DNA of 64,000 nt from Bradyrhizobium lablabi (lineage in GTDB: Bacteria > Pseudomonadota > Alphaproteobacteria > Rhizobiales > Xanthobacteraceae), in assembly GCF_900141755.1 (NCBI RefSeq), contig NZ_LT670844.1, positions 992,001-1,056,000 on the forward strand, in the 5' to 3' direction. Positions 18,263-33,075 of this stretch are shown here, in pieces. The notes under the pieces are model-generated. The model did not search any database and was not told the DNA's origin. It saw only the letters and a list, made by a program, of their open reading frames with translations. A program made the position numbers and the translations under genes. Position 1 is the stretch's first letter. Every line of letters begins with the position of its first letter.

Positions 18263-20392
18263 TTACAACAACCCCGCGCCGCGCGCCCATTTGTATTTCG
18301 CGCCCAGCACGGCGACCGGGATTTCGGTCGAGTAGGCGTAGGCGACGATGCCGTTCTGGTAGAGATAGTCGGCGGCCTCCTCGACCTCGATATCGCCGGC
18401 GAGCGAAGCCACCATCGGCTTTTCGATGCCCTTGGCCTTCATCTCCTTCTTCACTTCCACCATGTTCCGCGCAAACACCATCGGCGGCGTCACGATGGTG
18501 TGCCAGTAGCCCAGGATCAGCGCATGGATGCGCGGGTCTTCGAGCCCGAGCTTTACCGTATTGACGTATGTGATCGGCGGCTCGCCGCCGGTGATGTCGA
18601 CGGGATTGCCGGCAGCGCCGAACGGCGGGATGAATTTGCGGAACGCCGCGTCGAGATCAGGCGGGATCGTCATCAGCGACAATTTGTTGTCGATACAGGC
18701 GTCCGACAGCAGCACGCCCGAGCCGCCGGCGCCGGTGATGATGACGACGTTTTCCCCTTTCGGCGTCGGCAGCACCGGGACGCCGCGGGCGAATTCCAGC
18801 ATGTCGCGCAGCGACCGCGCGCGGATCACGCCGGACTGGTTGAACACATCCTCATAGATCTTGTCGTTGCCCGCGAGCGCGCCGGTGTGCGAGCTTGCGG
18901 CCTTGGCGCCGGCCGAAGTGCGTCCGGCTTTGAGCACCACGATCGGCTTCTTCTTCGACACCCGCTTTGCGACTTCGGCAAACGCCCGGCCGTCCTTCAA
19001 ATCCTCGCAATGCTGCGCGATGATTTGGGTATTGTCGTCCTGCTCGAAGAACGTCAACAGATCGTCCTCGTCGATATCGGACTTGTTGCCGAGGCCGACG
19101 ATCGCCGAGACGCCCATTTTCGCCGAGCGCGAAAAGCCGATGATCGCCATGCCGATGCCGCCGGATTGCGATGACAGCGCGGCCTGGCCCTTGACGTCGT
19201 AGGCGGTGCAGAACGTCGCGCACAGATTGGCGTGGGTATAATAGAAGCCGTAGATGTTCGGCCCCATCAGGCGGATGCCGTATTTCTGTCCGATCGCCTG
19301 GATTTCTTCCTGGCCCTTCACATTGCCGGTCTCGGCATAGCCGGAGGGAATGAGAATAGCGCCGACGACCTTCTTTTCCCCGCATTCGATCAGCGCACCG
19401 GCGACGAGACTTGCCGGGATCGCAAACACCGCGATATCGACCTCGCCCGGGATATCCTTGACCGACTTGTAGACCTTCTTGCCCAGGATCTCCTCGGCCT
19501 TGGGATGGATCGGATAGATCTCGCCCTTGTAGCCGCCGTTGATGAGATTCTTCATCACGGAGTTGCCGATCTTGCCGTTCTCGCTGGAAGCGCCGATCAC
19601 CGCGACCGCTTTCGGCTTCATGATCCGGTTCATCTGGCGCACGATGTCGTCGTGGTTCGGCCGCGGGCGCGGCGGCTTTGGCGCGAAGTCGACGACAATG
19701 CGCACGTCGGCGGCGACAGCGGCATCTTTGGTCGCGAATACCGGGTTCAAATCCATTTCGGCGATCTCAGGGAAATCGGTAACCAGCTTCGAGACGTTGA
19801 TAATGATGTCGGCGATCGCCTCGCGGTTGGCGGGGTCGCTGCCGCGCACGCCCTTGAGCATCTCATGGGCCTGGATGCCGTCCAGCATCGAGAGCGCGTC
19901 CTGCTTCGTCGCCGGCGCGAGGCGGAAGGTGATGTCTTTCAACACCTCGACCAATACCCCGCCGAGGCCGAACGCCACCAGCTTTCCGAACGAGCCGTCG
20001 GTCACCGCGCCGACGATGACCTCCTGTCCGCCCGTCAGCATCTGCTGAATCTGTACGCCCTCGATCTTGGCGTCGGATTTGTATTTCTTCGCATTCGCCA
20101 AGATCGTCGCGTAGTTGGTTTCGACTTCCGCAGCAGTCTTGACGCCGACCATCACGCCGCCGGCTTCGGTCTTGTGCAGGATGTCCGGCGAGACGATTTT
20201 CATCACGACCGGAAAACCCATGTCGGTCGCGATCCCGGCCGCCTCGGTTGCGGATTTGGCCACGCCCTCTTTCGGGACGGGAATGCCATAGGCGTCGCAG
20301 ACCAGTTTGCCTTCCGGCGCCGTCAGGCTGGTGCGTTTGTCCGCCTTGACTGAATCGAGTATTTTGCGGACCGCATCCTTGGAATTCGACAT
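18263..20392 (-). CDS. NDP-forming acyl-CoA synthetase (acetate-CoA ligase family), oxalate locus
   Basis: A 709-residue two-part enzyme. Residues about 1-230 form an ATP-grasp domain (VVMKIVSPDILHKTEAGGVM, then a GGQEVIVGAVTDGSFG segment). Residues about 260-700 carry a CoA-binding Rossmann fold (AVIGASSENGKIGNSVMKNL) and succinyl-CoA-ligase-like domains with the phosphohistidine-type segment SSHTGALAGND. The ATP-grasp domain precedes the CoA-binding part, the reverse of the commonest order. GGGAGGAAGCC before the ATG at 20392 fixes the start. It is divergent from the GntR regulator of the oxalate genes, with two identical operators between them. The acyl substrate is unknown; oxalate, formate or acetate are reasonable guesses from context. 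Confidence 0.86.
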   Translation of the reverse strand: MSNSKDAVRKILDSVKADKRTSLTAPEGKLVCDAYGIPVPKEGVAKSATEAAGIATDMGFPVVMKIVSPDILHKTEAGGVMVGVKTAAEVETNYATILANAKKYKSDAKIEGVQIQQMLTGGQEVIVGAVTDGSFGKLVAFGLGGVLVEVLKDITFRLAPATKQDALSMLDGIQAHEMLKGVRGSDPANREAIADIIINVSKLVTDFPEIAEMDLNPVFATKDAAVAADVRIVVDFAPKPPRPRPNHDDIVRQMNRIMKPKAVAVIGASSENGKIGNSVMKNLINGGYKGEIYPIHPKAEEILGKKVYKSVKDIPGEVDIAVFAIPASLVAGALIECGEKKVVGAILIPSGYAETGNVKGQEEIQAIGQKYGIRLMGPNIYGFYYTHANLCATFCTAYDVKGQAALSSQSGGIGMAIIGFSRSAKMGVSAIVGLGNKSDIDEDDLLTFFEQDDNTQIIAQHCEDLKDGRAFAEVAKRVSKKKPIVVLKAGRTSAGAKAASSHTGALAGNDKIYEDVFNQSGVIRARSLRDMLEFARGVPVLPTPKGENVVIITGAGGSGVLLSDACIDNKLSLMTIPPDLDAAFRKFIPPFGAAGNPVDITGGEPPITYVNTVKLGLEDPRIHALILGYWHTIVTPPMVFARNMVEVKKEMKAKGIEKPMVASLAGDIEVEEAADYLYQNGIVAYAYSTEIPVAVLGAKYKWARGAGLL

Positions 20393-20548
20393 TGGCTTCC
20401 TCCCCGAGGTCATTTTTTTCGTTCGTCGGCACGATCTCGTTGTGTCAGAACAGTGCTGGCATGCGCGCGATCGGTTTTCCGGTGATCGCAAACGCGGCAT
20501 CCGCGTGTGCGGCGGCTTGCTCCGGCCGCTGGGATCGTAGGCTGATTA

Positions 20549-20565
20549 TGGCATTTGGTATGCCA
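20549..20565. promoter_or_regulatory. GntR operator, oxalate regulon, copy 1
   Basis: TGGCATTTGGTATGCCA, a palindrome with 6-bp arms (TGGCAT/ATGCCA), 157 bp before the acyl-CoA synthetase start and 138 bp before the GntR start. It is identical over 17 bp to the copy at 20630. Confidence 0.65.
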
Positions 20566-20629
20566 GAAGCGAGGTTGTCAAGGCGCGATGCCTCGTGAAA
20601 ACGCCGAAAATAGGCGCAGCTTGACATTC

Positions 20630-20646
20630 TGGCATTTGGTATGCCA
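20630..20646. promoter_or_regulatory. GntR operator, oxalate regulon, copy 2
   Basis: An identical 17-bp palindrome, 81 bp from copy 1 and 57 bp before the GntR start. TTGACA at 20621-20626 lies just upstream and may be a -35 element that bound repressor would mask. Confidence 0.65.
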
Positions 20647-20702
20647 AAAATCTAATCGATATTTTTCTGATAGAGGACGTCTCCGGCTGGAGCAGATCCG
20701 TC

Positions 20703-21431
20703 ATGCCCACGCGCAAACAACCCAAGGCGTCGCCCACCATGGCTGAGCCAGACATCGCAATCGTCCGCATCGTCCCCGAGACCAGCTTCAAGAACAAGGC
20801 CTATGAGGCGTTGAAGGAAGCAATCCTCAAGATGGACATCTATGCGACGCCCGAGCCCGTCATGCTCGACGAGCGCGCACTGTCGGAACGCCTCGGCGTC
20901 AGCCGCACCCCGATCCGAGAGGCGATCGCAATGCTGGAGCAGGACGGTTTTGTGAAGACCGTGCCGCGCCGTGGCATTGTCGTGGTGCGCCGGACCAAGA
21001 CCGAGATCGTCGACATGATCCGCGCCTGGGCCGCGCTCGAGAGCATGGCCGCGCGGCTGATCACGACTACCGCGCGCAAGAAAGACATTTCGGCGCTGCG
21101 CGACTTCTTCAAGGATTTTAACAGCGATCGCTTGCCGCAGGATCATGTCGAGGAATATTCCAGGGCCAACATCGCCTTCCACCAGGCGCTGATCTCGCTC
21201 AGCGAGTCGCCGGTTTTGGTCGACATGACCAACGACATCCTCTTGCACGTGCGGGGCTACCGCCAATTGACGATCGGACGCAAGGATCGCACCGCGACGT
21301 CGCTGCCCGAGCACATGTCGATCATCGAAGCGCTGGAAGCGCGCGACACCGAACTCGCCGAGAAGCGCGCCCGCGATCATACGCTCGGCCTTGCCGCCTA
21401 TGTGGAAGCCCACGGGCAAGAGCTGTTTTAA
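20703..21431 (+). CDS. GntR-family regulator with FCD domain, probable oxalate regulon repressor
   Basis: A 242-residue regulator. The winged helix (about 25-90) contains [20 protein letters not shown], the FCD-subfamily recognition helix. The C-terminal helical ligand-binding domain carries the usual D/H metal-ligand positions ([22 protein letters not shown]). It is divergent from the acyl-CoA synthetase and 77 bp ahead of oxalyl-CoA decarboxylase on the same strand. Two identical palindromes lie in its promoter region, with variants before the antiporter, the CBS protein and a small gene. The inducer is plausibly oxalate or a CoA ester. Confidence 0.88.
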
Positions 21432-21508
21432 CAAAGCCACTGACTTGGGCGGTCACTGTGCAGACGAAAACCTCGTCGCAACAAGAAACGATCAGGGAGA
21501 CCCGGCCG

Positions 21509-23242
21509 ATGCTGAACACCGCGAGCAAGACCGAGGCGAGCGACGCCCATGACGAACTGACCGACGGCTTTCATCTCGTCATCGACGCCCTCAAGCTCAA
21601 TGGCATCACCACGATCTACGGCGTGCCCGGCATCCCGATCACGGATTTGGGACGCATGGCGCAGGCCGCGGGCATCCGTGTCATCTCGTTCCGCCACGAG
21701 CAGAATGCCGGTAACGCCGCGGCGATCGCCGGTTACCTGACCAAACAGCCCGGTGTCTGCCTCACGGTGTCGGCGCCCGGCTTTCTCAACGGCCTCACCG
21801 CGCTCGCCAACGCCACCACCAACTGCTTCCCGATGATTTTGATCAGTGGCTCATCGGAGCGCGAGATCGTCGACCTGCAGCAGGGCGACTATGAAGAGAT
21901 GGATCAGCTCGCGATCGCAAAACCGCTGTGCAAGGCGGCGTTCCGCGTGCTGCACGCCGCCGACATCGGCATTGGTCTGGCGCGCGCGATCCGCGCCGCC
22001 GTGTCGGGGCGGCCGGGCGGCGTCTATCTCGACCTGCCCGCAAAACTCTTTTCGCAGGTCATGAAGGCGGATGCCGGCGCCAAATCGCTGGTCCGGGTGA
22101 TCGACGCGGCACCGGCCCAGATCCCGGCACCATCAGCGGTCAAGCGCGCGCTCGATGTTCTCAAGAGCGCAAAACGTCCGCTGATCATTCTCGGCAAGGG
22201 CGCGGCCTACGCGCAGGCGGATGATTCGATCCGCACCCTGGTCGAGAAGAGCGGCGTTCCCTTCCTGCCGATGAGCATGGCCAAGGGCCTGTTGCCCGAC
22301 ACTCATCCGCAATGCGCGGGCGCCGCGCGCTCGACGGTATTGAAGGACGCCGACGTGGTGATGCTGATCGGCGCGCGCCTCAACTGGCTGTTGTCGCATG
22401 GCAAGGGCAAGAGTTGGGGCGAAGCGCCGAAAAAATTCATCCAGATCGACATCGAGCCCAAGGAGATGGACTCCAATGTCGAGATCGCAGCCCCCGTGGT
22501 CGGCGATATCGGCTCCTGCGTCGCCGCACTTCTTGAATCCATGGGCAGCAACTGGCCGGCCGCGCCGGCCGACTGGGTCGGTACCGTCAATGCGAAGCGG
22601 GAGGAAAACATCGCAAAAATGGCGCCGCGGCTGATGAACAACAAATCGCCGATGGACTATCACGGTGCGCTCGGGGCGCTGCGCAGCATCATCAAGGAGC
22701 GGCCGGACGCCATCCTCGTCAACGAAGGCGCCAACACGCTCGATCTCGCCCGCGGCGTCATCGACATGTACAAACCGCGCAAACGCCTGGATGTCGGCAC
22801 CTGGGGCGTGATGGGCATCGGCATGGGCTTTGCCATTGGTGCCGCGATCGAAACCGGCAAGCCCGTGCTCGCGGTCGAAGGCGACAGCGCCTTTGGTTTC
22901 TCCGGCATGGAGGTCGAGACCATCTGCCGCTACAATTTGCCGGTCTGCGTCGTCATCTTCAACAATGACGGCATCTATCGCGGCACCGACGTCAATCCGA
23001 CCGGCGGTCCCGATGTTGCGACCACCGTCTTCGTCAAGGGCTCGCGCTACGACAAGATGATGGAGGCGTTCGGCGGCACAGGCGTCAATGCGACGACGCC
23101 CGACGAGTTGAAGCGCGCCGTCAACGCGGCGATGGATTCCGGCAAGCCTACCCTGATCAACGCCGTGATCGATCCCGCGGCCGGCTCCGAGAGCGGCCGC
23201 ATCGGCAACCTCAACCCGCAAAGCGTGCTGAAGAAGAAATGA
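21509..23242 (+). CDS. oxc: Oxalyl-CoA decarboxylase
   Basis: A 577-residue ThDP enzyme converting oxalyl-CoA to formyl-CoA and CO2. The PYR domain has the catalytic E64 in [18 protein letters not shown]. The OXC-type [20 protein letters not shown] loop follows. The middle domain is FAD/ADP-binding-like, and the PP domain has the ThDP-Mg motif [19 protein letters not shown] ending NNDGIYRG. The ATG at 21509 (AGGGAGA upstream) gives a length like known OXC proteins (about 565-580); the frame opens 17 codons earlier at 21458. It forms an operon with the transferase gene downstream, though a palindromic repeat separates them. Confidence 0.95.
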
Positions 23243-23259
23243 ACGGGCCTAACCATCAA

Positions 23260-23409
23260 CGTCATCCCCCGCCACCGGGTCTCGGCTTCGGCGAGCCCGA
23301 TGACAGGCTCCGGCGGGGGATCCAGTACCCACCGAACTATCGTGACATGAGAGCTGTGCCCAATTTAACCGACGGTGAGTACTGGATGCCCGCCTTCGCG
23401 GGCATGACG
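23260..23409. repeat. Dispersed palindromic repeat between oxc and frc
   Basis: It begins CGTCATCCCCCGCC (23260) and ends GCGGGCATGACG (to 23409). Internal inverted segments include ATCCAGTACCCA against GAGTACTGGAT. It is non-coding and lies inside the oxc-frc transcript, where it may act on mRNA stability. The termini are like those of 18212-18258 and 37593-37723. Confidence 0.7.
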
Positions 23410-23434
23410 GCGTCACACTTATGGAGAGAGTAAG

Positions 23435-24712
23435 ATGACAAAGGCGCTCGAGGGCGTTCGCATTCTCGATTTCACCCACGTCCAGTCGGGCCCGACCTGC
23501 ACGCAATTGCTGGCCTGGTTCGGCGCCGACGTGATCAAGGTCGAGCGCCCCGGGGTCGGCGACATCACCCGCGGTCAATTGCAGGACATCCCCAAGGTCG
23601 ACAGCCTGTATTTCACCATGCTCAACCACAACAAGCGCTCGATCACGCTCGACACCAAGAACCCGAAGGGCAAGGAAGTCCTGACCGCGCTGATCAAGCA
23701 ATGCGACGTGCTGGTGGAAAATTTCGGCCCCGGCGTGCTCGACCGCATGGGATTTCCGTGGGAGAAGATCCAAAGCATCAATCCGAAGATGATCGTGGCC
23801 TCGATCAAGGGTTTCGGGCCCGGGCCTTACGAAGACTGCAAGGTCTATGAGAACGTCGCGCAATGCACCGGCGGCGCGGCATCGACCACCGGCTTTCGCG
23901 ACGGCCTGCCGCTGGTCACCGGCGCGCAGATCGGCGACAGCGGCACCGGGCTGCATTTGGCGCTCGGCATCGTCACCGCGCTCTATCAGCGCACCGTCAC
24001 GGGCAAGGGACAAAAGGTCACCGCCGCGATGCAGGACGGCGTGCTCAATCTCGCGCGCGTAAAACTGCGCGATCAGCAGCGCCTCGCTTATGGTCCGCTC
24101 AAGGAATACAGCCAGTTCGGCGAAGGCATTCCGTTTGGCGACGCGGTGCCGCGCGCAGGCAACGATTCCGGCGGCGGCCAGCCCGGCCGCATCCTGAAGT
24201 GCAAGGGCTGGGAGACCGATCCCAACGCCTACATCTACTTCATCACGCAAGCGCCGGTCTGGGAGAAGATTTGCGACGTCATCGGCGAGCCCGGCTGGAA
24301 GACCCATCCCGATTACGCCAAGCCCCCTGCCCGGCTGTCACGCCTCAACGAGATCTTTTCGCGCATCGAGCAATGGACGATGACCAAGACCAAGTTCGAG
24401 GCGATGGAGATCCTCAACAAGGACGACATCCCCTGCGGCCCGATCCTGTCGATGAAGGAACTCGCCGAAGACCAATCGCTGCGTGCCACCGGCACCGTGG
24501 TCGAGGTCGATCATCCCGAGCGCGGCAAGTATTTGTCGGTCGGCAATCCCATCAAGATGTCGGACAGCCCGACCGAGGTGAAGCGCTCGCCGCTGCTCGG
24601 CGAACACACCGACGAGATTTTGCGGCAGGTGCTCGGCTTGACCGATCACCAGGTGGCGGAGATCCACGATTCCGGCGCGCTCGATCCGCCGCGCAAGCTC
24701 GCCGCCGAATAG
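23435..24712 (+). CDS. frc: Formyl-CoA:oxalate CoA-transferase
   Basis: A 425-residue class III CoA-transferase that moves CoA from formyl-CoA to oxalate, supplying oxalyl-CoA for Oxc. It has the N-terminal [20 protein letters not shown] block, the catalytic aspartate D168 in [11 protein letters not shown] and the glycine loop NDSGGGQPG near residue 258. Length matches the family (about 425-430). GGAGAGAG precedes the ATG at 23435. It ends 16 bp from the convergent sulfite-exporter-like gene, which marks the boundary to the inserted sulfide cassette. Confidence 0.95.
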
Positions 24713-24728
24713 GCAGGCTGGACCTTCC

Positions 24729-25508
24729 CTAACTCATCATCGCTTGTCCACTGCGATAGAGGACGTAGCCGGCCACGACGAAGATCAGGGCCGCGAAGAT
24801 GCGCGTCAGCGTATCTTTGCCGTGCGACAGCCGATTGGCCAGCATCATGCCGGCGAGCCCACCCACGATGCCGCCGGCGATGAACTCGCCGGCGAGCCGC
24901 CAATCGACCAGACCGGACAGCGAGTAGTTGATCGCCGTGGCGAGCCCGAAGCTGCCCACCGCCAGCAGCGAGGAGCCTACTGCCTTGATCATCGGCATGC
25001 GGGTAGCCAGCATCAGGCCCGGCACGATCAGGAATCCGCCGCCGATGCCGAAGAATCCCGACGCCATACCGGCGAGGAACGCGACTGCCGCCGTCAGCAG
25101 GCAGGTTGCGAGATTGGCCTCCCGCTCGGCCGCACCATTTTCACGGCGCGGCCGCAGCATCATCGCACCAACGGCGACCATGATGAGCCCGAACAGAAAC
25201 AGCAGCCGATTGCCGTCGACGAGCTTGCCGAGGCTCGATCCGGCGAAGGCGCCGAGCGTGCCGACGACGGCGAAGATGACGGCACATCGCCAGCGGACGT
25301 TTCCGGCGCGGGCATGGCCGGCGAGATTGGCGAAAGCATTCACCGAAACCGCAAGTGCGCCGGTGCCGATCGCGACATGGGGCTGAGCCACGCCCACGAC
25401 GTAGAGCAACAGCGGCGTTGCGAGGATGGAGCCGCCGCCTCCGACCAGTCCGAGCGAAAACCCGACCAGCGCTCCAGAACTCAGCGCGGCGCTGATCATC
25501 GCGGTCAT
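24729..25508 (-). CDS. TSUP (TauE/SafE) family membrane exporter
   Basis: A 259-residue protein with about eight hydrophobic helices in two related halves. Each half begins with a glycine-rich motif (GFSLGLVGGGGSILATPLLL and MASGFFGIGGGFLIVPGLML). TSUP proteins move sulfite, thiosulfate or sulfoacetate-type anions. It is the last gene of a five-gene sulfide-detoxification operon and overlaps the repressor gene by 4 bp. Export of sulfite produced by the persulfide dioxygenase is the natural reading. Confidence 0.88.
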   Translation of the reverse strand: MTAMISAALSSGALVGFSLGLVGGGGSILATPLLLYVVGVAQPHVAIGTGALAVSVNAFANLAGHARAGNVRWRCAVIFAVVGTLGAFAGSSLGKLVDGNRLLFLFGLIMVAVGAMMLRPRRENGAAEREANLATCLLTAAVAFLAGMASGFFGIGGGFLIVPGLMLATRMPMIKAVGSSLLAVGSFGLATAINYSLSGLVDWRLAGEFIAGGIVGGLAGMMLANRLSHGKDTLTRIFAALIFVVAGYVLYRSGQAMMS

Positions 25509-25936
25509 AGTGCGCTCCTGCCACCCGGCTCGACGCGGGCGAACATGGCAGCTTCAGTGAACTTCCTGCGAGCTGGCGTGGCCTGTGGCGCCGGGACGGC
25601 AGACGTGAGATCCGGCATCTCTCCACAAAAAATCTGGTGCAGGGTCGCAAGCAGGGCGACCGCTCGCTGATCCGAAATCCGGTAGAAGACCTGCTTGGCC
25701 TCGCGACGCGCCTCGACGATGCCGCTCTCACGCAGCTCGGCGAGCTGTTGCGACAGGCTTGGCTGGCGAAGACCGAGATCGGTTTCCAGATCGCCCACGG
25801 AGCGTTCGCCGTCGAGCAGCGCGCAGGCGATCATGAGCCGGTTTGGATTGGCGAGGCTCTTCATGAACGAGCTGGCAGCCTCCGCCTTCTCGCGCGTGAC
25901 CGTAGAGTCGCGTTTCTGTGGCTTGCGCATGATCAT
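25505..25936 (-). CDS. bigR: BigR/SqrR-type ArsR-family sulfide-responsive repressor
   Basis: A 143-residue winged-helix repressor. The recognition region is DLGLRQPSLSQQLAELRESG. Cysteines C38 (MIACALLDGE) and C104 (HQIFCGEMP) are 66 residues apart, the same separation as the redox pair of SqrR/BigR that forms a disulfide or tetrasulfide with persulfide and releases DNA. It overlaps the genes on both sides by 4 bp. The probable operator is the AT-rich palindrome at 27964-27995, between this operon and sqr. Confidence 0.88.
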   Translation of the reverse strand: MIMRKPQKRDSTVTREKAEAASSFMKSLANPNRLMIACALLDGERSVGDLETDLGLRQPSLSQQLAELRESGIVEARREAKQVFYRISDQRAVALLATLHQIFCGEMPDLTSAVPAPQATPARRKFTEAAMFARVEPGGRSAL

Positions 25937-26835
25937 TCCCAGGCCGCGCCCGGAAGCGCATCGAGCGGAAATTTGAGATAGCGTCTGCCGTTGTCCTCGG
26001 ACTCGGGAAGACGCCCGCCACGAACGTTCACCTGCAGGGCATGCAGGATCAGCTTCGGCATCGGGAGCGTCCGGTCGCGGGCCTCGCGCAGAGCGATGAA
26101 CTCCGCCTCGCTCTTGCCGACCAGATGCGGGTTCAGGCGCTTCTGGTCGCCGACCGTGCTTTGCCAGCGCGGCTCTCGCCCGCCCGGTTGATAATCGTGA
26201 CCAGTAAAGACCCGGGTCTCATCGGGAAGCGCGAGAATGTCCTGGATCGACGCCCACAGCGTCTTGGCGCTGCCGCCGGGAAAATCGGCGCGCGCCGTGC
26301 CGCTATCCGGCATGAACAGCGTGTCGTGGACGAAGGCGGCGTCGCCGATCACATAGGTGATCGAGGCGAGCGTGTGTCCGGGCGAGAACAGCACATGCGC
26401 GTTGAGCGAGCCGACCTTGAAGCGGTCGCCATGCTGGAAGAGACAGTTCCATTGCGAACCGTCGGATGGCAGCGACGGCAAGTTGTAGATGCCCTTCCAA
26501 AGGCGTTGCACGTCGACGACACGCTCGCCGATCGCCGTCGGCGCACCCGTCTTCTCGTGCAGATAATGCGCGGCCGAGAAGTGGTCGGCGTGCGGATGGG
26601 TGTCGAGAATCCATGCGACCGTCAGGTCATTCTCGGCGACATAGGCGAGGATGGCGTCCGCGTTGACGGTCCCGGTCGCGCCCGACTTCTCGTCGAAGTC
26701 GAGCACGGGATCGATGATGGCGCAGGCCCTGGTGGCCGGATCGCCGACGACGTACTGGATGCTCGAAGTGCGCGGGTCGAAAAAGCCTTTGACGTCGGGT
26801 TTGACGCGCGTGATCTGGTTCATCATCCGCCTCAT
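25933..26835 (-). CDS. Metallo-beta-lactamase-fold persulfide dioxygenase (ETHE1/Blh type)
   Basis: A 300-residue enzyme that oxidises glutathione persulfide to sulfite. The metal motif is THPHADHFSAAH (H80, H82, D84, H85), followed by SPGHTLAS, the aspartate in MPDSGTARADFPGGSA and the terminal histidine in FTGHDYQPGG, the mono-iron persulfide dioxygenase pattern. The start at 26835 overlaps the peroxiredoxin stop (ATGA). A start three codons in, with GAGG before it, is also possible. In Xylella-type operons this domain is fused to the DUF442 phosphatase-like domain; here they are separate genes. Confidence 0.9.
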   Translation of the reverse strand: MRRMMNQITRVKPDVKGFFDPRTSSIQYVVGDPATRACAIIDPVLDFDEKSGATGTVNADAILAYVAENDLTVAWILDTHPHADHFSAAHYLHEKTGAPTAIGERVVDVQRLWKGIYNLPSLPSDGSQWNCLFQHGDRFKVGSLNAHVLFSPGHTLASITYVIGDAAFVHDTLFMPDSGTARADFPGGSAKTLWASIQDILALPDETRVFTGHDYQPGGREPRWQSTVGDQKRLNPHLVGKSEAEFIALREARDRTLPMPKLILHALQVNVRGGRLPESEDNGRRYLKFPLDALPGAAWE

Positions 26836-27497
26836 AGTTTTCTCAGGCGGTAATACCAGTCCAGCGTGTCGCCGGACGCGCCTGATTCATTGAGGGCATC
26901 GACGGTGATCGGCGCCGGCTCGATCACGGCATCGCCGTGCCGCCAGCCTTCCGGCGTTGACACGGCTTCCCGGTCGGTGGTCTGCAGCGCTTCGACGAGA
27001 CGGAGAATTTCCTCGACAGAACGGCCGGTCGACATCGGATACCAGACCATCGCGCGGATCAGGCCGTCAGGATCGATGACAAAGGTCGCCCGCACGGTGG
27101 AGCTGTCGGCCGCGTCCGGATGAATCATGCCGTAGGCGGCGGCGATCGCCATCGACGGATCCTCGGTGATCGGGAACGGCACCGTCACATCGAAGCGTTC
27201 GTGGATCGAGCGCACCCAGGCGATATGCGAGTACAGGCTGTCGACGGAGAGCGCCAGGAGATCGCAGCCCAGCGCCTGGAAGCGGTCGTAGGCTTTCGAG
27301 AAGGCGACGAACTCGCTGGTGCAGACCGGCGTGAAATCCGCTGGATGCGAGAAGAACACCAGCCAGCGGCCGCGATAATCGTCCAGCGATCGCTTGCCCA
27401 TGGTGGTGCGGGTTGAGAAGCGAGGCGCGGGGCTGCCGATCAGCAGCGGCCGGGTAACGACGGCCGGCGCCGGTCGTTCAAGGATGGGCTCGGTCAT
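26832..27497 (-). CDS. Peroxiredoxin, 1-Cys (Prx6/AhpC-TSA) type
   Basis: A 221-residue thioredoxin-fold peroxidase. The peroxidatic cysteine C59 is in PADFTPVCTSEFVAFSK. The C-terminal part (DEXDWYY-like end SGDTLDWYYRLRKL) belongs to the Prx6 group, and no canonical resolving cysteine is seen. Inside the sulfide operon it may reduce peroxides or persulfides formed during sulfide oxidation. It overlaps its neighbours by 4 bp on both sides. Confidence 0.9.
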   Translation of the reverse strand: MTEPILERPAPAVVTRPLLIGSPAPRFSTRTTMGKRSLDDYRGRWLVFFSHPADFTPVCTSEFVAFSKAYDRFQALGCDLLALSVDSLYSHIAWVRSIHERFDVTVPFPITEDPSMAIAAAYGMIHPDAADSSTVRATFVIDPDGLIRAMVWYPMSTGRSVEEILRLVEALQTTDREAVSTPEGWRHGDAVIEPAPITVDALNESGASGDTLDWYYRLRKL

Positions 27498-27940
27498 TTG
27501 TGATCTCCTGCAGAACCGTTGCGGTGGGCGGCAAGCCAGGCCCGGGCCGCGTTCGTGTCGACGCCGAGCTCTCTCGCCTTGGCAAGCAGTTCCTCGTCAG
27601 AAAGCGAATCGAGATCACCCGAGAGAACCCAAAGGTAGAAGGAGCGTGCGCCGCTCCTGCAGTGCGCGACGACAGGACCGGGCGCCTGCTCGATCGTCTC
27701 CTTGAGAAGCCGAGCGTCCTGTTCGGTCATGCCCATGGTCGTCACGGGAATGTGGACATAGCCGAGCCCAGCTGCGCGAGCGGCTTCCGCTTCCACGGCT
27801 GAGCCGAGCTGGGTGGGATCTTCGCCGTCGGGCCGGTTGTTGACCACGGTCGTAAAACCAGACCGTCTAAACTCTTGAAAGTCCGAAAGTTTCGGCTGCG
27901 GCGCGACCGCGAGCTTGGCTGTGACTGCAATAGGTTTCAT
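27494..27940 (-). CDS. DUF442/TIGR01244 sulfur transferase or phosphatase-like protein
   Basis: A 148-residue protein with the cysteine loop AHCRSGARSFYLW (CX5R), shared by tyrosine-phosphatase-like and rhodanese-like folds. The family is usually joined to a persulfide dioxygenase domain (Blh) and probably handles persulfide sulfur. The start is fixed by AAGGAGGTCCCG before the ATG at 27940; the frame is open to 27970. It is the first gene of the operon, 102 bp from the divergent sqr start. Confidence 0.85.
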   Translation of the reverse strand: MKPIAVTAKLAVAPQPKLSDFQEFRRSGFTTVVNNRPDGEDPTQLGSAVEAEAARAAGLGYVHIPVTTMGMTEQDARLLKETIEQAPGPVVAHCRSGARSFYLWVLSGDLDSLSDEELLAKARELGVDTNAARAWLAAHRNGSAGDHK

Positions 27941-27963
27941 CGGGACCTCCTTGACGCCGGTCG

Positions 27964-27995
27964 ATATCATTATATAATTAACTATAGTGAGATAT
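27964..27995. promoter_or_regulatory. AT-rich imperfect palindrome, candidate BigR operator
   Basis: A 32-bp imperfect palindrome with outer arms ATATC/GATAT and inner TATA/TATA around a TTAA centre. It is strikingly AT-rich against its surroundings and lies between the divergent sulfide operon (start 27940) and sqr (start 28043). BigR-type repressors bind TA-rich palindromes overlapping the -10 region. Confidence 0.55.
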
Positions 27996-28042
27996 GAAAA
28001 AATGCAAGTGAAAAAGATCTAACAAGAGCGAAGGAGGCGTCC

Positions 28043-29305
28043 ATGGACGCAATCGTGCAAGAAGCAGCGGCAGGCATCGCAGAGGTGAAACATGCCATCG
28101 TGATCGTCGGGGGCGGCGCCGCCGGCATCACCGTCGCGGCGGAGTTGAAGCGCCATGACCCGGGCCTCGACATCGCCATTGTCGAGCCATCGGAGCTTCA
28201 CTGGTACCAGCCGGGCTGGACGCTGGTTGGCGCCGGCGTCTTTAGCCGCAAGCAGACCGAACGGCGCGAGGAGAAGTTGATCCCGAAAGGCGTGACGTGG
28301 ATCAGGGCCGCGGTGGCAAGCTTTGATCCGGACGAGAACGCGGTCCGGCTCTCGGACGGCCGGCAGGTCCGCTACGACTTCCTCATCGCCTGCCCCGGGC
28401 TCAAGATCGATTGGGACGCCATTGAGGGCCTGACCGACGCGCTGGGACGCAACGGCGTCTGCAGCAATTATCGGCCCGATACCGCCGAATACACATGGCA
28501 GCTGATCAAGAGCTTTCGCGGCGGCACCGCCCTGTTCACGCAGCCGGCCATGCCGATCAAATGCGCCGGCGCGCCGCAGAAGATCATGTATCTGATGGCC
28601 GACCACCTGCGGCGCAATCGCGAGCTCTCGGCCGCCTCGCTCGAATTCAACCTGGCGGGCGAGGCGCTGTTCGGCGTGCCATTCTTCGTTCCGCCGCTGC
28701 AGAAAGCGGTCGACGGCTACGGCATCAAGGTTGCTTACAAGCACAATCTCAAGGCGATCGATGGATCTACGAAGACTGCGCTGTTTTCCGTCACTGGCGC
28801 GGATGGCAAGGTCTCCGAGGTCGAAAAGCGCTTCGACATGATCCATGTCGTGCCGCCGCAGACCGGCCTCGACGTCGTCCGTGCAAGTCCGCTCGCGAAC
28901 GCCGCCGGTTGGATCGAGGTCGATCCCGCCAACCTGCGTCATGTTCGCTATCCGAATATCTTTGCCCTCGGAGATGCGGCTTCCACGACCAACGCCAAGA
29001 CCGCAGCGGCCGTGCGCATACAGGCGCCCATCGTGGTCGCCAATCTGCTGGCCGCCATGAAAGGCGAGCCGCTGACGAGAGCCTATGACGGCTACGGGTC
29101 GTGCCCCCTCACCGTTGCCTACGGCAAGATCGTGCTCGCCGAGTTCGCCTATGGCGGCAAGGTGACGCCGAGCTTCCCGCTCGACCCGCGCGTTCCCCGC
29201 CGCAGCATGTGGCTCCTGAAGACGAAGTTGCTTCCCTGGCTCTACTGGTCTCACATGTTCAAGGGCGGCGAGTTCGACATTCCTCACCGCGCGAGAGGCT
29301 GGTGA
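28043..29305 (+). CDS. sqr: Sulfide:quinone oxidoreductase (type II, SQOR-like)
   Basis: A 420-residue peripheral membrane flavoprotein that oxidises H2S and passes electrons to quinone. The FAD-binding IVGGGAAGITVAAELKR is at residues 21-37. Redox cysteines C174 (MPIKCAGAPQK) and C354 (YGSCPLTVAY) correspond to the pair of mitochondrial-type SQOR, and C117 (IACPG) is also present. A second dinucleotide contact is at IFALGDAASTTNAKTAAAV. The C-terminal amphipathic KTKLLPWLYWSHMFKG should anchor it to the membrane. GGAGG lies 5 bp before the ATG. It is divergent from the bigR operon and probably shares its operator. Confidence 0.93.
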   Translation: MDAIVQEAAAGIAEVKHAIVIVGGGAAGITVAAELKRHDPGLDIAIVEPSELHWYQPGWTLVGAGVFSRKQTERREEKLIPKGVTWIRAAVASFDPDENAVRLSDGRQVRYDFLIACPGLKIDWDAIEGLTDALGRNGVCSNYRPDTAEYTWQLIKSFRGGTALFTQPAMPIKCAGAPQKIMYLMADHLRRNRELSAASLEFNLAGEALFGVPFFVPPLQKAVDGYGIKVAYKHNLKAIDGSTKTALFSVTGADGKVSEVEKRFDMIHVVPPQTGLDVVRASPLANAAGWIEVDPANLRHVRYPNIFALGDAASTTNAKTAAAVRIQAPIVVANLLAAMKGEPLTRAYDGYGSCPLTVAYGKIVLAEFAYGGKVTPSFPLDPRVPRRSMWLLKTKLLPWLYWSHMFKGGEFDIPHRARGW

Positions 29306-29476
29306 CCTGCCGAGGGGCGTCCGGGCATTCTCCTGCCGTCGCGACCGAGTCGCTCGGCATGCCGATTCCAGATGATTGGGCCCTTTGGCTCGGGCCGGAC
29401 AATGCTACCGCTTGCGGAACCAATTATGTTGCATTGCAAGAGCCAATATGCTGCTATGCAGGCGAATGCGTGGCGC

Positions 29477-29493
29477 TGGCATCTGGCATGCCT
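29477..29493. promoter_or_regulatory. Oxalate-regulon operator variant before the small gene
   Basis: TGGCATCTGGCATGCCT keeps both 6-bp arms of the GntR palindrome with one mismatch. It lies 35 bp before the ATG of the 45-residue gene at 29528. Confidence 0.5.
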
Positions 29494-29527
29494 AGCTCAT
29501 GTCTCGCTATCGCAACAAGGGAACAAA

Positions 29528-29665
29528 ATGTCCAAGTCTGCCTCTATCGGCCTCGCACGCCCGGCCACATTTTTCGGCCGCGTGATGGCCGCGATCGATC
29601 GCCTGCTGATGGCGAACGCCAATATCGCTGTTCGTAACGGCGACCTCCCCTATTTCGGCCTCTGA
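29528..29665 (+). CDS. Small protein of the oxalate locus, 45 residues
   Basis: The protein is basic and amphipathic. It begins MSKSASIGLARPATFFGRVM, has an I/L/M-rich helix in the middle (AAIDRLLMANANIAV) and ends RNGDLPYFGL. AAGGGA six bases before the ATG at 29528 gives a good ribosome site; the frame is open upstream to 29372 without one. It has its own candidate GntR operator 35 bp upstream and a strong terminator at 29737, so it looks like a stand-alone short transcript. I recognise no family. Its regulation suggests a role in oxalate growth. Confidence 0.6.
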   Translation: MSKSASIGLARPATFFGRVMAAIDRLLMANANIAVRNGDLPYFGL

Positions 29666-29736
29666 GCGCTGCAAAAGCGCGGCGTTGCAGCAAGCCTGCA
29701 CTATCGCGGACCAGACCCTGCAATCCGCTTCCCAGC

Positions 29737-29761
29737 CCCCGGTTTACCGGGGTCTTTTTTT
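29737..29761 (+). terminator. Rho-independent terminator after the 45-residue gene
   Basis: CCCCGG (29737-29742), loop TTTA, CCGGGG (29747-29752), then TCTTTTTTT. A canonical terminator that isolates the small gene from the antiporter gene. Confidence 0.88.
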
Positions 29762-29857
29762 GCCCTGCGTTCCGCGCCCGGAACCGCGGAGGCCGACAGC
29801 AAGCGACTGCGACATTTTGGACGCGACAACGCTGCAAAGGAAGTATGACTTGCGCTC

Positions 29858-29874
29858 TGGCATATCACATACCA
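29858..29874. promoter_or_regulatory. Oxalate-regulon operator before the antiporter gene
   Basis: TGGCATATCACATACCA, arms TGGCAT/ATACCA, 55 bp before the antiporter ATG. It differs from the 20549/20630 palindrome by one arm base plus the spacer. Confidence 0.55.
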
Positions 29875-29928
29875 AAATGGCTTCCGGGTAACGCTCGTCC
29901 AACAGAAGCGTGCCCTTGGGGAGAAACC

Positions 29929-31242
29929 ATGACCGCCACCACTCGAGGGCCGGCGTCGCCGGTCTCTGAACGCACCTACTTCCGCTGGTTACAACTTGCG
30001 ATGGGCGTCGTCTGCATGGCGATGATCGCGAATCTGCAATATGGCTGGACGCTGTTCGTCGACCCCATCGACGCCAAATATCACTGGGGCCGCGCCGCGA
30101 TCCAATTGGCCTTTACGCTGTTCGTGGTGACGGAGACCTGGCTGGTTCCGATCGAAGCGTGGTTCGTCGACAAATACGGTCCACGTGCGGTGATCATGTT
30201 CGGCGGGGTGATGATCGCGATCGCCTGGGTGATGAACTCCTACGCCAATTCGCTGGTGCTGCTTTATGTCGCCGCGATCGTCGGCGGCATCGGCGCCGGC
30301 TCGGTATACGGCACCTGCGTCGGCAATGCGCTAAAATGGTTTCCCGACCGCCGTGGCCTGGCGGCGGGCGCGACCGCCGCGGGTTTTGGCGCCGGTGCTG
30401 CGATCACGGTGGTGCCGATTGCGAACATGATTGCGGCGAGCGGCTACCAGGCCGCTTTTCTTACATTTGGCATCGGCCAGGGCTTGATCGTCTTCATCCT
30501 CGCCTTTTTCCTGCGCAAGCCGGCGCGGGCGATGCCGATCAAGAAGAAGCAGCTCAATCTGCCCCAGACCAAGATCGACTTCACGCCGCCGCAGGTGCTG
30601 CGCAGCCCGATCTTCTGGGTGATGTATCTGACATTCGTGATGGTCGCCGCGGGCGGTCTGATGGCGGCGGCGCAAATCGCGCCGATCGCCCACGACTTCA
30701 AGATCGCCAATGAGCCCGTCGGTCTTCTCGGCTTCCAGATGGCGGCGCTGACCTTTGCGATATCGCTCGACCGGATCTTCGACGGCTTCGGCCGTCCGTT
30801 CTTCGGCTGGGTTTCCGACCATATCGGCCGCGAACACACGATGTTTATCGCGTTCGCGATCGGCGCCTTGATGCTGCTGACGCTATCGACCTACGGCCAA
30901 ATCCCCATCGTCTTCGTGCTGGCGACCGCGGTTTATTTCGGCGTGTTCGGTGAAATCTACAGCCTGTTCCCGGCGACATCAGGCGATACGTTCGGAGCAA
31001 AATATGCCACCACCAACAACGGCATGCTGTACACGGCGAAGGGAACCGCCGCCCTGCTGGTGCCGCTCGCAAGCCTCGTCGCCTCCAAATATGGCTGGCA
31101 GGCGGTGTTCGTGATCGCCGTTGCGCTCAACGCGACCGCCGCGCTCACGGCGCTGTTCGTGATCAAGCCAATGCGACGCACTTTCATCCTGGGCAGTGAA
31201 GCGAGGTCGGATACTCGCGCCGGCGACGCCAGGGCCGCCTGA
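29929..31242 (+). CDS. oxlT: Oxalate/formate antiporter, MFS (OxlT type)
   Basis: A 437-residue 12-helix transporter exchanging oxalate for formate. The substrate-binding basic residues of OxlT are matched by R282 in LDRIFDGFGRPFFGWVSD and K371 in MLYTAKGTAALLVP. The N-terminal YGWTLFVDPI and MFS loop FVDKYGPR are typical. GGGGAGAAACC before the ATG at 29929 fixes the start, although the frame is open from 29845. It is separated from oxc-frc by the sulfide cassette but carries the same operator type upstream. Confidence 0.92.
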   Translation: MTATTRGPASPVSERTYFRWLQLAMGVVCMAMIANLQYGWTLFVDPIDAKYHWGRAAIQLAFTLFVVTETWLVPIEAWFVDKYGPRAVIMFGGVMIAIAWVMNSYANSLVLLYVAAIVGGIGAGSVYGTCVGNALKWFPDRRGLAAGATAAGFGAGAAITVVPIANMIAASGYQAAFLTFGIGQGLIVFILAFFLRKPARAMPIKKKQLNLPQTKIDFTPPQVLRSPIFWVMYLTFVMVAAGGLMAAAQIAPIAHDFKIANEPVGLLGFQMAALTFAISLDRIFDGFGRPFFGWVSDHIGREHTMFIAFAIGALMLLTLSTYGQIPIVFVLATAVYFGVFGEIYSLFPATSGDTFGAKYATTNNGMLYTAKGTAALLVPLASLVASKYGWQAVFVIAVALNATAALTALFVIKPMRRTFILGSEARSDTRAGDARAA

Positions 31243-31260
31243 TAACCCTTGCATTCAATG

Positions 31261-31291
31261 AAAAGAGGCGCACCGTGTGCGCCTCTTTTTT
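31261..31291 (+). terminator. Rho-independent terminator after the antiporter gene
   Basis: AAAAGAGGCGCAC (31261-31273), loop CGT, then GTGCGCCTC (31277-31285) and TTTTTT. Strong canonical hairpin, 19 bp after the stop codon. Confidence 0.92.
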
Positions 31292-31458
31292 GCGCGGCTC
31301 AACGGAACGTAAAATGTGATAGCATGTTTGGTCTGCTTTCAACCTGAACGGGCGAGGCCCGAGGTGCGAGATCCAGGTCGTCCAAACGTCAAGATCACTG
31401 CCGTTTTTTTAAAGTTCGCGAGTGGCTGACGGCGTTAAAGCGAAATTTAATTGACGGT

Positions 31459-31475
31459 TGGCATAATGTATACCA
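31459..31475. promoter_or_regulatory. Oxalate-regulon operator before the CBS-domain gene
   Basis: TGGCATAATGTATACCA, with the same arms as the antiporter site, 49 bp before the CBS-protein start. TTGACG at 31451-31456 just upstream is a possible -35. Confidence 0.55.
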
Positions 31476-31523
31476 ATCTTTTCCACACGAAGAGGGTCCT
31501 GCGGCTCATCTAGGGAGGTTGCG

Positions 31524-31952
31524 ATGCAAGTCGGAGACATCCTGTGTAAGAAAACTGCCCGCGTTGTGACGGTTCGAATGAACGAAACCGTCGCCATTGC
31601 CGCTCAATTGATGCGCGCCAGCAATATCAGCGCGCTGGTGGTCAAAGACGTGGTCCGGACCGAGGGCAACACCGCGGTCGGCATGTTCACCGAGCGCGAC
31701 GTCGTCCGCGCCATTGCCGAGCATGGTGCTGCCGGCGTCAACCTGAAGGTCTCGCAACTGATTTCCGTGCAGCATCTCGTCTCCTGCAGTTCGACCGATA
31801 CGCTCGAACAGGTCCGTTATCTCATGCACCGGCACCACATCCGCCATCTGCCTGTGATCGACAATTACTCCCTGATCGGCGTCATCAGCATGCGCGACAT
31901 CGCTACCGCGCTCGATGAAGTGGCAGCGGTGCCAACCGTCTCGGCTGCCTGA
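31524..31952 (+). CDS. Two-CBS-domain protein of the oxalate locus
   Basis: A 142-residue protein consisting only of a CBS pair. The first CBS (about 5-65) ends with VGMFTERDVVRAIAEHG and the second (about 75-135) with IGVISMRDIATALDEV; both have the G-h-h-S/T-x-x-D nucleotide-contact motif. CBS pairs bind AMP, ATP, SAM or NADH-type ligands and often regulate partner enzymes. AGGGAGGTTGCG precedes the ATG. The upstream operator ties it to the oxalate regulon, where it could sense energy or CoA-nucleotide state; the partner is unknown. Confidence 0.85.
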   Translation: MQVGDILCKKTARVVTVRMNETVAIAAQLMRASNISALVVKDVVRTEGNTAVGMFTERDVVRAIAEHGAAGVNLKVSQLISVQHLVSCSSTDTLEQVRYLMHRHHIRHLPVIDNYSLIGVISMRDIATALDEVAAVPTVSAA

Positions 31953-32055
31953 CAAGAGCTCCGCGTCGGCTGCGACCTCCCCGGCTTTGAGTTACCGCTC
32001 AAAGCCTGCAAGGAGTCGGTGCTGAAATTTCCACCAACTGCGCTGGAAAGTTTTC

Positions 32056-33075
32056 ATGAAAATCTGCATCTATGGCGCCGGCGCGATCGGCGGATATCTG
32101 GGAGTGCAACTGCTGCGCGCTGGCGCCGACGTCAGCCTGGTTGCGCGCGGAGCGCATCTTGCCTCGATGCGCGAGAGCGGATTGAAACTGCTGATCGGTG
32201 ATGAAGAACGCGTGGTGCAGCCACGCTGCACCGACAATCCTTCCGAGCTCGGACCGCAAGATTTCGTGATCGTCTGCCTGAAGGCACATTCCATCACCGG
32301 CGCGATCGAAGCGATGCAGCCGCTGCTCGGGCCACGAACGCGGATCGTCACCGCGGTCAATGGAATTCCCTATTGGTATTTTTACAAGCACGGCGGCCGC
32401 TTCGAGGGTTCGACGCTGGACAGCATCGATCCCGGCGGACGGCAATGGCGCGAGCTTACGCCAGAGCGGGCGATCGGATGCATCGTCTATCCCGCAACCG
32501 AGATCGAGGCGCCAGGCGTGATCCGCCATGTCTACGGCGATCGCTTCCCGATCGGAGAGCCGTCGGGCGAAATCAGTTCGGACGTTGAGCGGCTTTCCGC
32601 GCTATTCGTCGCGGCTGGAATGCAGGCCCCCGCGCTCGAGCGCATCCGCGACGAAATCTGGCTCAAGTTGTGGGGTAATGTCTGCCTCAATCCGATCTCG
32701 GCGCTGACCCATGCAACGCTCGATGTGATCTGCTCCGATCCGACCACGCGCGCGCTGTCGAAAGCGATTATGCTGGAAACCCAGGCGATCGCCGAAAGTT
32801 TTGGGGTCAAATTCCGCGTCGACGTCGAACGGCGGATCGAGGGCGCACGCAAGGTCGGCGCTCACAAGACATCAATGCTGCAGGATCTTGAACGCGGCCG
32901 CCCGATGGAGATCGATCCGCTGGTGACCGTGGTGCAGGAAATGGGGCGTTTAACGCAGATACCGACGCCAGCGCTGGATGCGGTGCTGGCGCTGGTTGCC
33001 CAGCGCGCCAAAATCGCCGGCCTATATGACGGAATTGTCCGCCCCACGGAAACAAAGGCCCTCGCCTTTGCATGA
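32056..33075 (+). CDS. PanE-like 2-dehydropantoate 2-reductase family protein
   Basis: A 339-residue NADP-dependent reductase of the ketopantoate reductase fold. It has the nucleotide-binding IYGAGAIGGYLGVQLLRAG at the start, lysine in CLKAHS, the catalytic lysine/asparagine pair in EIWLKLWGNVCLNPISAL, and a C-terminal helical domain with the E-D motif around GRPMEIDP. GGAAAG precedes the ATG. The family includes true PanE (CoA biosynthesis) and many paralogues acting on other 2-oxo acids. Its place 100 bp after the CBS gene suggests the oxalate locus, but no operator precedes it. Confidence 0.82.
   Translation: MKICIYGAGAIGGYLGVQLLRAGADVSLVARGAHLASMRESGLKLLIGDEERVVQPRCTDNPSELGPQDFVIVCLKAHSITGAIEAMQPLLGPRTRIVTAVNGIPYWYFYKHGGRFEGSTLDSIDPGGRQWRELTPERAIGCIVYPATEIEAPGVIRHVYGDRFPIGEPSGEISSDVERLSALFVAAGMQAPALERIRDEIWLKLWGNVCLNPISALTHATLDVICSDPTTRALSKAIMLETQAIAESFGVKFRVDVERRIEGARKVGAHKTSMLQDLERGRPMEIDPLVTVVQEMGRLTQIPTPALDAVLALVAQRAKIAGLYDGIVRPTETKALAFA

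Follow-up and report, generated by a model that had tools for sequence, protein, structure and literature searches.

A 17-bp palindrome, TGGYAT-N5-ATRCCA, was analyzed in a 64,000-nt stretch of the Bradyrhizobium lablabi genome (hereafter the window; C1:992001-1056000 of the single contig C1, 7,909,999 bp). Judged from sequence, and with considerable confidence, we read it as the operator of an oxalate regulon present in Bradyrhizobium and other families of the order, most likely bound by a dimer of an FCD-subfamily GntR protein that probably represses from it; the GntR gene lies beside oxc and frc, which encode oxalyl-CoA decarboxylase (Oxc) and formyl-CoA transferase (Frc). A sequence-only reading of the window had proposed the stricter form TGGCAT-N5-ATRCCW as the mark of such a regulon at five positions, and the form is found at exactly these places (20549, 20630, 29477, 29858, and 31459; Table 1), against 0.02 expected from 100 shuffled windows. 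The sites at 20549 and 20630, being perfect palindromes, are matched on both strands. At up to two mismatches, TGGYAT-N5-ATRCCA has 18 matches in the window against 4.1 expected; four are perfect and two, at 16645 and 29477, carry one mismatch (a final T at 29477). The operators stand upstream of frc/oxc, transporter genes, and genes of downstream enzymes, as expected of an oxalate regulon. The start codon follows the site at 56 bp in the GntR gene, at 34 bp in a gene for a 45-residue protein, at 54 bp in the oxalate/formate antiporter gene (ATG at 29929), and at 48 bp in the CBS-domain gene. For the ADP-forming acyl-CoA synthetase a distance of 48 bp relies on the first ATG of the ORF, at 20500, and needs correction; a conserved N-terminus, MSNSKDAV, begins at 20392 and is preceded by GGGGAGG, so that the start is probably 20392 rather than 20500 and the site probably lies ∼156 bp upstream.

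Across the host genome TGGYAT-N5-ATRCCA matches perfectly at nine places, and the reversed pattern, used as the genome-wide control, at none. Four of the nine are in the window, three in a second oxalate locus, one before a formate dehydrogenase operon, and one (5981138), probably a chance occurrence, inside a 2164-residue open reading frame (ORF); the places C1:837418 (one mismatch) and 1507563 (off-consensus T) also fall inside mechanically called ORFs. The motif is thus nearly absent from the rest of the host genome, and the regulon, which had been described as spread over 11 kb, is wider, since sites also occur at unlinked oxalate and formate genes. An origin by chance or as a compositional repeat could appeal to the perfect match inside a long ORF and to the frequency of looser patterns (TGGNAT-N5-ATNCCA at up to one mismatch occurs at 155 places, control 25, and is uninformative), but the shuffled windows, the empty reversed control, and the conservation of the sites before orthologs and not before nine control genes (below) leave it a negligible probability, and it was rejected. 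Separately, a gene for an NAD(P)H-hydrate epimerase/dehydratase was seen to have a one-mismatch site 48 bp upstream (G000 C1:7530212; L025 4213).

The second oxalate locus lies at C1:6.88 Mb, unlinked to the first. One perfect site precedes a second antiporter gene and a pair of perfect sites, 84 bp apart, precedes a second oxc, which has as its neighbors frc, sucC, sucD, a PanE2-like reductase gene, and a glyoxylate carboligase cluster. Its frc product (L021 7071-8336) is 99% identical to that of the window (23435-24709) and the oxc products are 87-89% identical, which suggests that frc alone was recently duplicated or gene-converted. The perfect site at 2518638 stands 45 bp before the host formate dehydrogenase operon (FdsG/B-like, with an alpha subunit above the TIGR01591 cut-off). 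Within the genus, 40 genomes (host included) hold 4 to 10 sites each, and 0 to 2 matches to the reversed control. Among the 30 formate dehydrogenase loci read, from 40 matches in these genomes, a site was found in 24 at one mismatch or fewer and in all 30 at two or fewer. For sucC, 41 matches were obtained in 39 of the 40 genomes (two genomes with two each), and 29 of the 30 loci read have a perfect site 52 to 59 bp upstream. Shuffled upstream stretches for formate dehydrogenase and sucC gave sites at rates of 0.3% and 0% (one mismatch or fewer) and 1.8% and 2.2% (two or fewer), respectively. The sole sucC exception, in genome G015, has no site. Both the host and G015 possess a second sucC copy within an oxalate or glyoxylate locus, beside oxc/frc in the host and facing an IclR-family gene in G015, with a site between the two.

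Relatives of the window locus were collected by a scan with the GntR protein, from which 80 loci of 134 were kept, mostly from Bradyrhizobium and Tardiphaga. Upstream sites and promoters were counted for genes with at least 45% identity, an alignment beginning no later than residue 12 (residue 60 in the synthetase), and 400 to 450 bp of upstream sequence. The divergent region between the synthetase and GntR genes holds two perfect sites in 80/80 relatives, spaced by 71 (2), 80 (1), 81 (58), 82 (16), or 90 (3) bp. At one mismatch or fewer, an upstream site is present for GntR and for the synthetase in 80/80 cases each, counts that are not independent because one intergenic region is common to both; it is likewise present for the CBS gene (30/30), the antiporter OxlT (14/14), a second antiporter type, OxlT2 (39/41; 53/55 for the antiporters together), and TctC of a tripartite transporter that this window lacks (33/33, at 274-377 bp). 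The gene for the 45-residue protein has a site at two mismatches or fewer in 48/48 cases, 45 of them at 38 to 73 bp; the commonest form in relatives, TGGCATCTGGTATACAT (22/48), keeps the left arm intact and has a weakened right arm. Nine control genes gave 0/247 upstream sites at one mismatch or fewer (Oxc 0/60, Frc 0/78, TctB 0/32, TctA 0/32, PanE2-like 0/10, and four downstream genes 0/16, 0/13, 0/1, and 0/5). At two mismatches they reach 15/247, made up of TctA (14/32) and one downstream gene (1/16), so the threshold applied to the 45-residue gene is the weaker one. Conservation before orthologs in 80 loci, near absence elsewhere in the host, and recurrence at unlinked oxalate and formate genes together bear out the proposal that the motif defines a regulon, and on these counts the small protein and the CBS protein are members of it, in line with their earlier assignment to oxalate metabolism.

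The position of the operator within the promoter is also conserved. In six promoter types a TTG usually begins 7 to 9 bp before the operator: at -9 in GntR (80/80), at -8 in CBS (30/30), OxlT (14/14), OxlT2 (39/39), and TctC (28/33), and at -7 in the 45-residue gene (38/48, this window not among them). A T four bases past the operator is found in CBS (29/30), OxlT (13/14), OxlT2 (39/39), and TctC (29/33), and the right arm is overlapped by a -10-like element, CA(N3)T for the most part, in four of the seven classes of promoter. The conserved TTG and T place the -35 and -10 elements 17 bp apart, with the operator filling the spacer and crossing the -10, an arrangement that suggests repressor geometry. 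The synthetase promoter differs, with its TTG at -16 (74/80). We see only a slim chance that GntR binds these sites and mainly activates, or does both: the spacing of the paired sites, mostly 81 to 82 bp, and the distance of the TctC and synthetase sites from the start codon would suit an activator, whereas a dimer bound at the CBS, OxlT, OxlT2, or TctC operator should exclude polymerase. Sigma-54 promoters (-24/-12) have the consensus TGGCAC-N5-TTGC, which TGGCAT-N5-ATGC resembles, so that the sites might be taken for promoters of this class in place of an operator. However, the CBS and OxlT sites have AC (ATACC) where the -12 element has its invariant GC, leaving the GG/GC pair incomplete, the right arm continues as RCCA, the mirror of the left, and a sigma-70-like TTGAC precedes the operator at a fixed distance; a sigma-54 identity is scarcely credible and was rejected.

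The GntR protein (20703-21431) contains a winged helix-turn-helix domain (PF00392, 48.1 bits; cut-off 27) and an FCD ligand domain (PF07729, 80.1 bits; cut-off 24.3), and reaches the cut-off of none of the NCBIfam families that it matched. The recognition helix SRTPxREA and the pocket residues N, FH, H, H, and H are each kept in 95% or more of 48 aligned sequences; we take the metal/ligand pocket of FCD domains to consist of an Asn/Asp and three His, and the choice of metal-binding residues is likewise our assumption. Next after GntR stands oxc in 79/80 loci, and in the remaining one the contig ends inside oxc. An order-wide sample of 249 genomes (oxc at E ≤ 1e-150, GntR at E ≤ 1e-40) has 48 genomes with oxc and a GntR homolog, 1 with oxc alone, 18 with GntR alone, and 182 with neither; the exception among the 49 oxc-bearing genomes, G116, has a completeness of 76%. 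Fisher's test gives p ∼5e-35 without a correction for phylogeny, and related genomes are not independent. Under the same proviso, the mean number of sites per genome is 6.2 where the GntR homolog is close (n = 30), 2.3 where it is distant (n = 36), and 1.27 where there is none (n = 183). GntR-less members of a genus have fewer sites than their GntR-bearing relatives: 0 in G088 and 1 in G125 versus 5 to 6, 0 in G256 versus 3 to 5, and 0 to 2 in eight g22 genomes versus 5. By these sequence comparisons, the adjacent FCD-type GntR protein is strongly suggested to be the operator binder.

Several observations weigh against a GntR-repressed oxalate regulon of this form. Twelve of the 183 GntR-less genomes have five or more sites (G116, with oxc, among them), so that site counts per genome are insufficient as sole proof of the link to GntR. 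Outside Bradyrhizobium, in L166-L185 (20 stretches from 17 further genomes, 16 of other families and G115 of the same family), the GntR gene has its own site at one mismatch or fewer in just 7/21 cases, and 4/20 stretches have no such site at all; the sites in this set precede OxlT2, Oxc, synthetase, FdsGB, and Tct genes and SucC. In L186-L205 (20 stretches around more distant GntR homologs) the GntR gene has its own site in 14/20, and autoregulation thus varies with lineage. The host housekeeping sucC has no site (best 3 mismatches), and in some relatives the gene that comes after CBS is not the PanE2-like one. As to the promoters, the best -10 of the GntR gene needs a 19-bp spacer (T at +5, 61/80), the 45-residue gene has no TTG in this window, and a consensus scan of 29300-32100 found no sigma-70 promoter, a blank that is attributable to poor hexamers; the promoter assignments draw on conservation.

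A regulon that is real and bound by another regulator, either IclR/BhcR-like and encoded beside glyoxylate carboligase or unlinked, with GntR controlling something else, would account for the missing GntR sites outside Bradyrhizobium and for the site-rich GntR-less genomes; moreover, the second-locus sites adjoin an IclR-family gene and the G015 site precedes one. We consider it unlikely in view of the co-occurrence of oxc and GntR in 48/49 genomes, their adjacency in nearly all loci, the two sites that flank the GntR promoter in 80/80, and the few sites in genus members missing GntR. Five or more perfect sites were also observed in genomes without a GntR or oxc hit (G050, G078, G097, G121, G122, G134, G189, G194, G213, G237, and G255, the last with 11 sites); the palindrome in these may belong to a different regulator or be part of a repeat.

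With GntR as the preferred binder, we propose that its dimer occupies the operator and would thereby block RNA polymerase, and that oxalate or a derived CoA ester in the FCD pocket would release it. Derepression would then provide import through OxlT (in relatives also TctCBA), CoA activation (by Frc and the ADP-forming ligase, and by SucCD too in many relatives), decarboxylation by Oxc, oxidation of formate by formate dehydrogenase (Fds), and probably reduction to glyoxylate via the CBS protein and the PanE2-like gene product, whose genes may form one unit. The ATP-dependent ligases could re-supply acyl-CoA when oxalyl-CoA is drained to glyoxylate and is not regenerated by the exchange of formyl-CoA for oxalate, and the 45-residue protein would be a co-induced helical accessory. 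We rate as an even bet the wider proposal of a global oxalate regulon (at least eight sampled families) with succinyl-CoA ligase (SucCD), an enzyme of the tricarboxylic acid cycle, as an ATP-dependent CoA loader, TctCBA serving oxalate, and the 45-residue family tuning or coupling transport or CoA loading.

TctCBA genes were seen in or beside oxalate loci, often with an operator (L030 14421-17977, L181 10738-13987, L186, L187, L189, L191, L193, L198, L199, L200, L202, and L204), and their product is a candidate for the transport of oxalate; some 300 bp separate the operator from TctC in Bradyrhizobium, leaving a long leader. In three further loci (L170 12270-14333, L171 2043-3998, and L180 3-1640) the position of Oxc is held by a thiamine-diphosphate enzyme 25 to 27% identical to it, with GntR, operators, OxlT2, and synthetase present, and Frc in two of the stretches. 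The enzyme of L170 was compared with 25 families and passed the cut-off of none; a possible role is that of an alternative oxalyl-CoA or 2-hydroxyacyl-CoA enzyme.

The loci read contain 51 members of the 45-residue protein gene; 48 have exactly 45 codons and 50 start with ATG. The ratio of non-synonymous to synonymous variation (pN/pS, from 47 unique 45-codon sequences) is 0.46 in frame versus 0.93 and 2.02 in the shifted frames, a codon pattern by which we regard the gene as protein-coding and which disfavors a spurious ORF or a mere leader. The consensus C-terminus is RNGDLPxFGL, and AlphaFold2 predicts one helix at residues 15 to 37 (mean confidence, pLDDT, 76). The window protein matched no Pfam or NCBIfam family; membership of NF047966 (MFS transporter small subunit) was considered and rejected, no family being matched even at E ≤ 10 and five relatives being likewise unmatched to NF047966. 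A resemblance to that family is that an NF047966 tail is present on the MFS protein adjoining formate dehydrogenase. A profile search at E ≤ 0.01 counted 2419 proteins, of which the best 120 were listed. Beyond this family, relatives of 44 to 45 residues that end in PFGL were found in L166, L170, L171, and L180, four genomes from three families, with upstream operators at 1, 0, 0, and 2 mismatches, respectively. Only L170 and L171 (E 1e-4 and 3e-4) were found independently, since L166 and L180 were first weak matches (E 0.06 and 0.11) and were then added by eye to the profile. A pattern search yielded 20 candidates, and the listing was confined to the ones that had a site at two mismatches or fewer. 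The family, predicted to be helical, appears not to have been described before, and every case found in this analysis has an operator of its own.

Table 1. Operators, promoter elements, genes, and terminator-like hairpins of the oxalate locus (window coordinates)
Feature	Position	Strand	Basis or remark
Operator O1 (perfect palindrome of 17 bp), divergent region, acyl-CoA synthetase side	20549..20565		Motif search
Operator O2, 17-mer identical to O1, GntR-oxc-frc promoter	20630..20646		Motif search
Operator O3 of 45-residue protein gene, right arm ending CCT	29477..29493		Motif search
Operator O4 of oxalate/formate antiporter gene	29858..29874		Motif search
Operator O5 of CBS gene	31459..31475		Motif search
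-35-like TTGACA of GntR promoter	20621..20626	+	Conserved TTG
-35-like TTGCGC of antiporter promoter	29850..29855	+	-10-like CAAAAT at 29873-29878, 17-bp spacer
-35-like TTGACG of CBS promoter	31451..31456	+	-10-like CAATCT at 31474-31479, 17-bp spacer
ADP-forming acyl-CoA synthetase	18263..20392	-	Family matches; ORF extends to 20500, conserved start 20392
FCD-subfamily GntR regulator, proposed repressor	20703..21431	+	PF00392 and PF07729 above cut-off
oxc, oxalyl-CoA decarboxylase	21458..23242	+	TIGR03254 above cut-off; ORF start, true start uncertain
frc, formyl-CoA transferase	23435..24712	+	TIGR03253 above cut-off
45-residue protein gene, conserved, C-terminus RNGDLPYFGL	29528..29665	+	Conservation, codon pattern
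Terminator-like hairpin with T run after 45-residue protein gene	29737..29752	+	Hairpin search
Oxalate/formate MFS antiporter (OxlT)	29929..31242	+	TIGR04259 above cut-off
Terminator-like hairpin after antiporter gene	31268..31280	+	Hairpin search
Two-CBS-domain protein	31524..31952	+	PF00571
Ketopantoate-reductase-like protein, 103 bp after CBS, no own site	32056..33075	+	NF005089 above cut-off

A terminator-like hairpin stands after each of the 45-residue and antiporter genes (the region has 7 such matches versus 3.0 expected), so that these two genes and CBS, the last either alone or joined to the PanE2-like gene, seem to make up three transcripts with one operator each, the first probably a separate short one. 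The ketopantoate-reductase-like protein belongs to the 2-dehydropantoate-2-reductase family and is a probable PanE2-type oxalyl-CoA reductase, an identity and activity suggested by its neighborhood. Between frc and the 45-residue gene the window has a sulfur block (24729-29305) encoding a TauE-type exporter, a BigR-like repressor, and sulfur dioxygenase-like, peroxiredoxin, and sulfide:quinone-reductase-like proteins; as many relatives have only ∼200 bp there (e.g., L030), the block was probably inserted into the oxalate locus.

Plants, fungi, and soil are rich in oxalate, whose breakdown supplies the oxalate-carbonate carbon sink. The motif offers a testable regulon with a likely regulator named; it gives a context to the CBS protein, the TctCBA transporter, and the 45-residue protein family, and it links oxalate use to formate dehydrogenase and the tricarboxylic acid cycle. 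A literature search, mostly at the level of search results and outside subscription literature, found no regulator or operator of the aerobic frc/oxc pathway. The text of a 2026 survey of oxalate genes contains neither "GntR" nor "regulator" (PMC12927642), and no regulator or operator of this pathway was met in the portion covered of PMC5987411. Nor did the search find oxalate described as a ligand of FCD repressors.

In Methylobacterium, according to the part consulted of PMC8411744, PanE2 is an oxalyl-CoA reductase in Frc/Oxc oxalate catabolism, and the window resembles that system in having frc, oxc, and a PanE2-like gene together. As far as that part goes, the difference is that here one operator adds Fds, the CBS and 45-residue proteins, and the ADP-forming ligase, joined in relatives by SucCD and TctCBA. 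Bradyrhizobium diazoefficiens has the same enzymes (bll3156/bll3157): on L-arabinose, in the sections seen of PMC5996035, frc and oxc were raised together with gcl, hyi, and the NuoF-like blr2316, possibly a homolog of FdsB, the rise of oxc not being significant in one of two fractions, and frc/oxc expression in nodules appears in an excerpt of PMC4926349. This co-expression, obtained independently, fits the proposed regulon. The term GntR is absent from the text of both articles, and the portions covered name no operator.

The FCD (FadR) subfamily of GntR repressors includes FadR, PdhR, LldR, and McbR. The system described here shares with them a winged helix-turn-helix joined to an FCD domain, a His/Asn pocket, short palindromes overlapping the promoter, and control of an organic-acid pathway. 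Sites of the FadR/PdhR type, TGGT-N3-ACCA, have half-sites ∼7 bp apart (TGG-N5-CCA), whereas the conserved arms here are TGG-N11-CCA. The sequence-only reading held that FCD-type GntR proteins bind short palindromes of this kind; the N5 core gives half-sites 11 bp apart, wider than in the FadR type. Thirteen relatives have solved structures, McbR (4p9f) and PdhR (9jpj) among them. A GntR operator regulon is of a known kind; what appears to be new is this particular regulon, with its breadth and its small protein.

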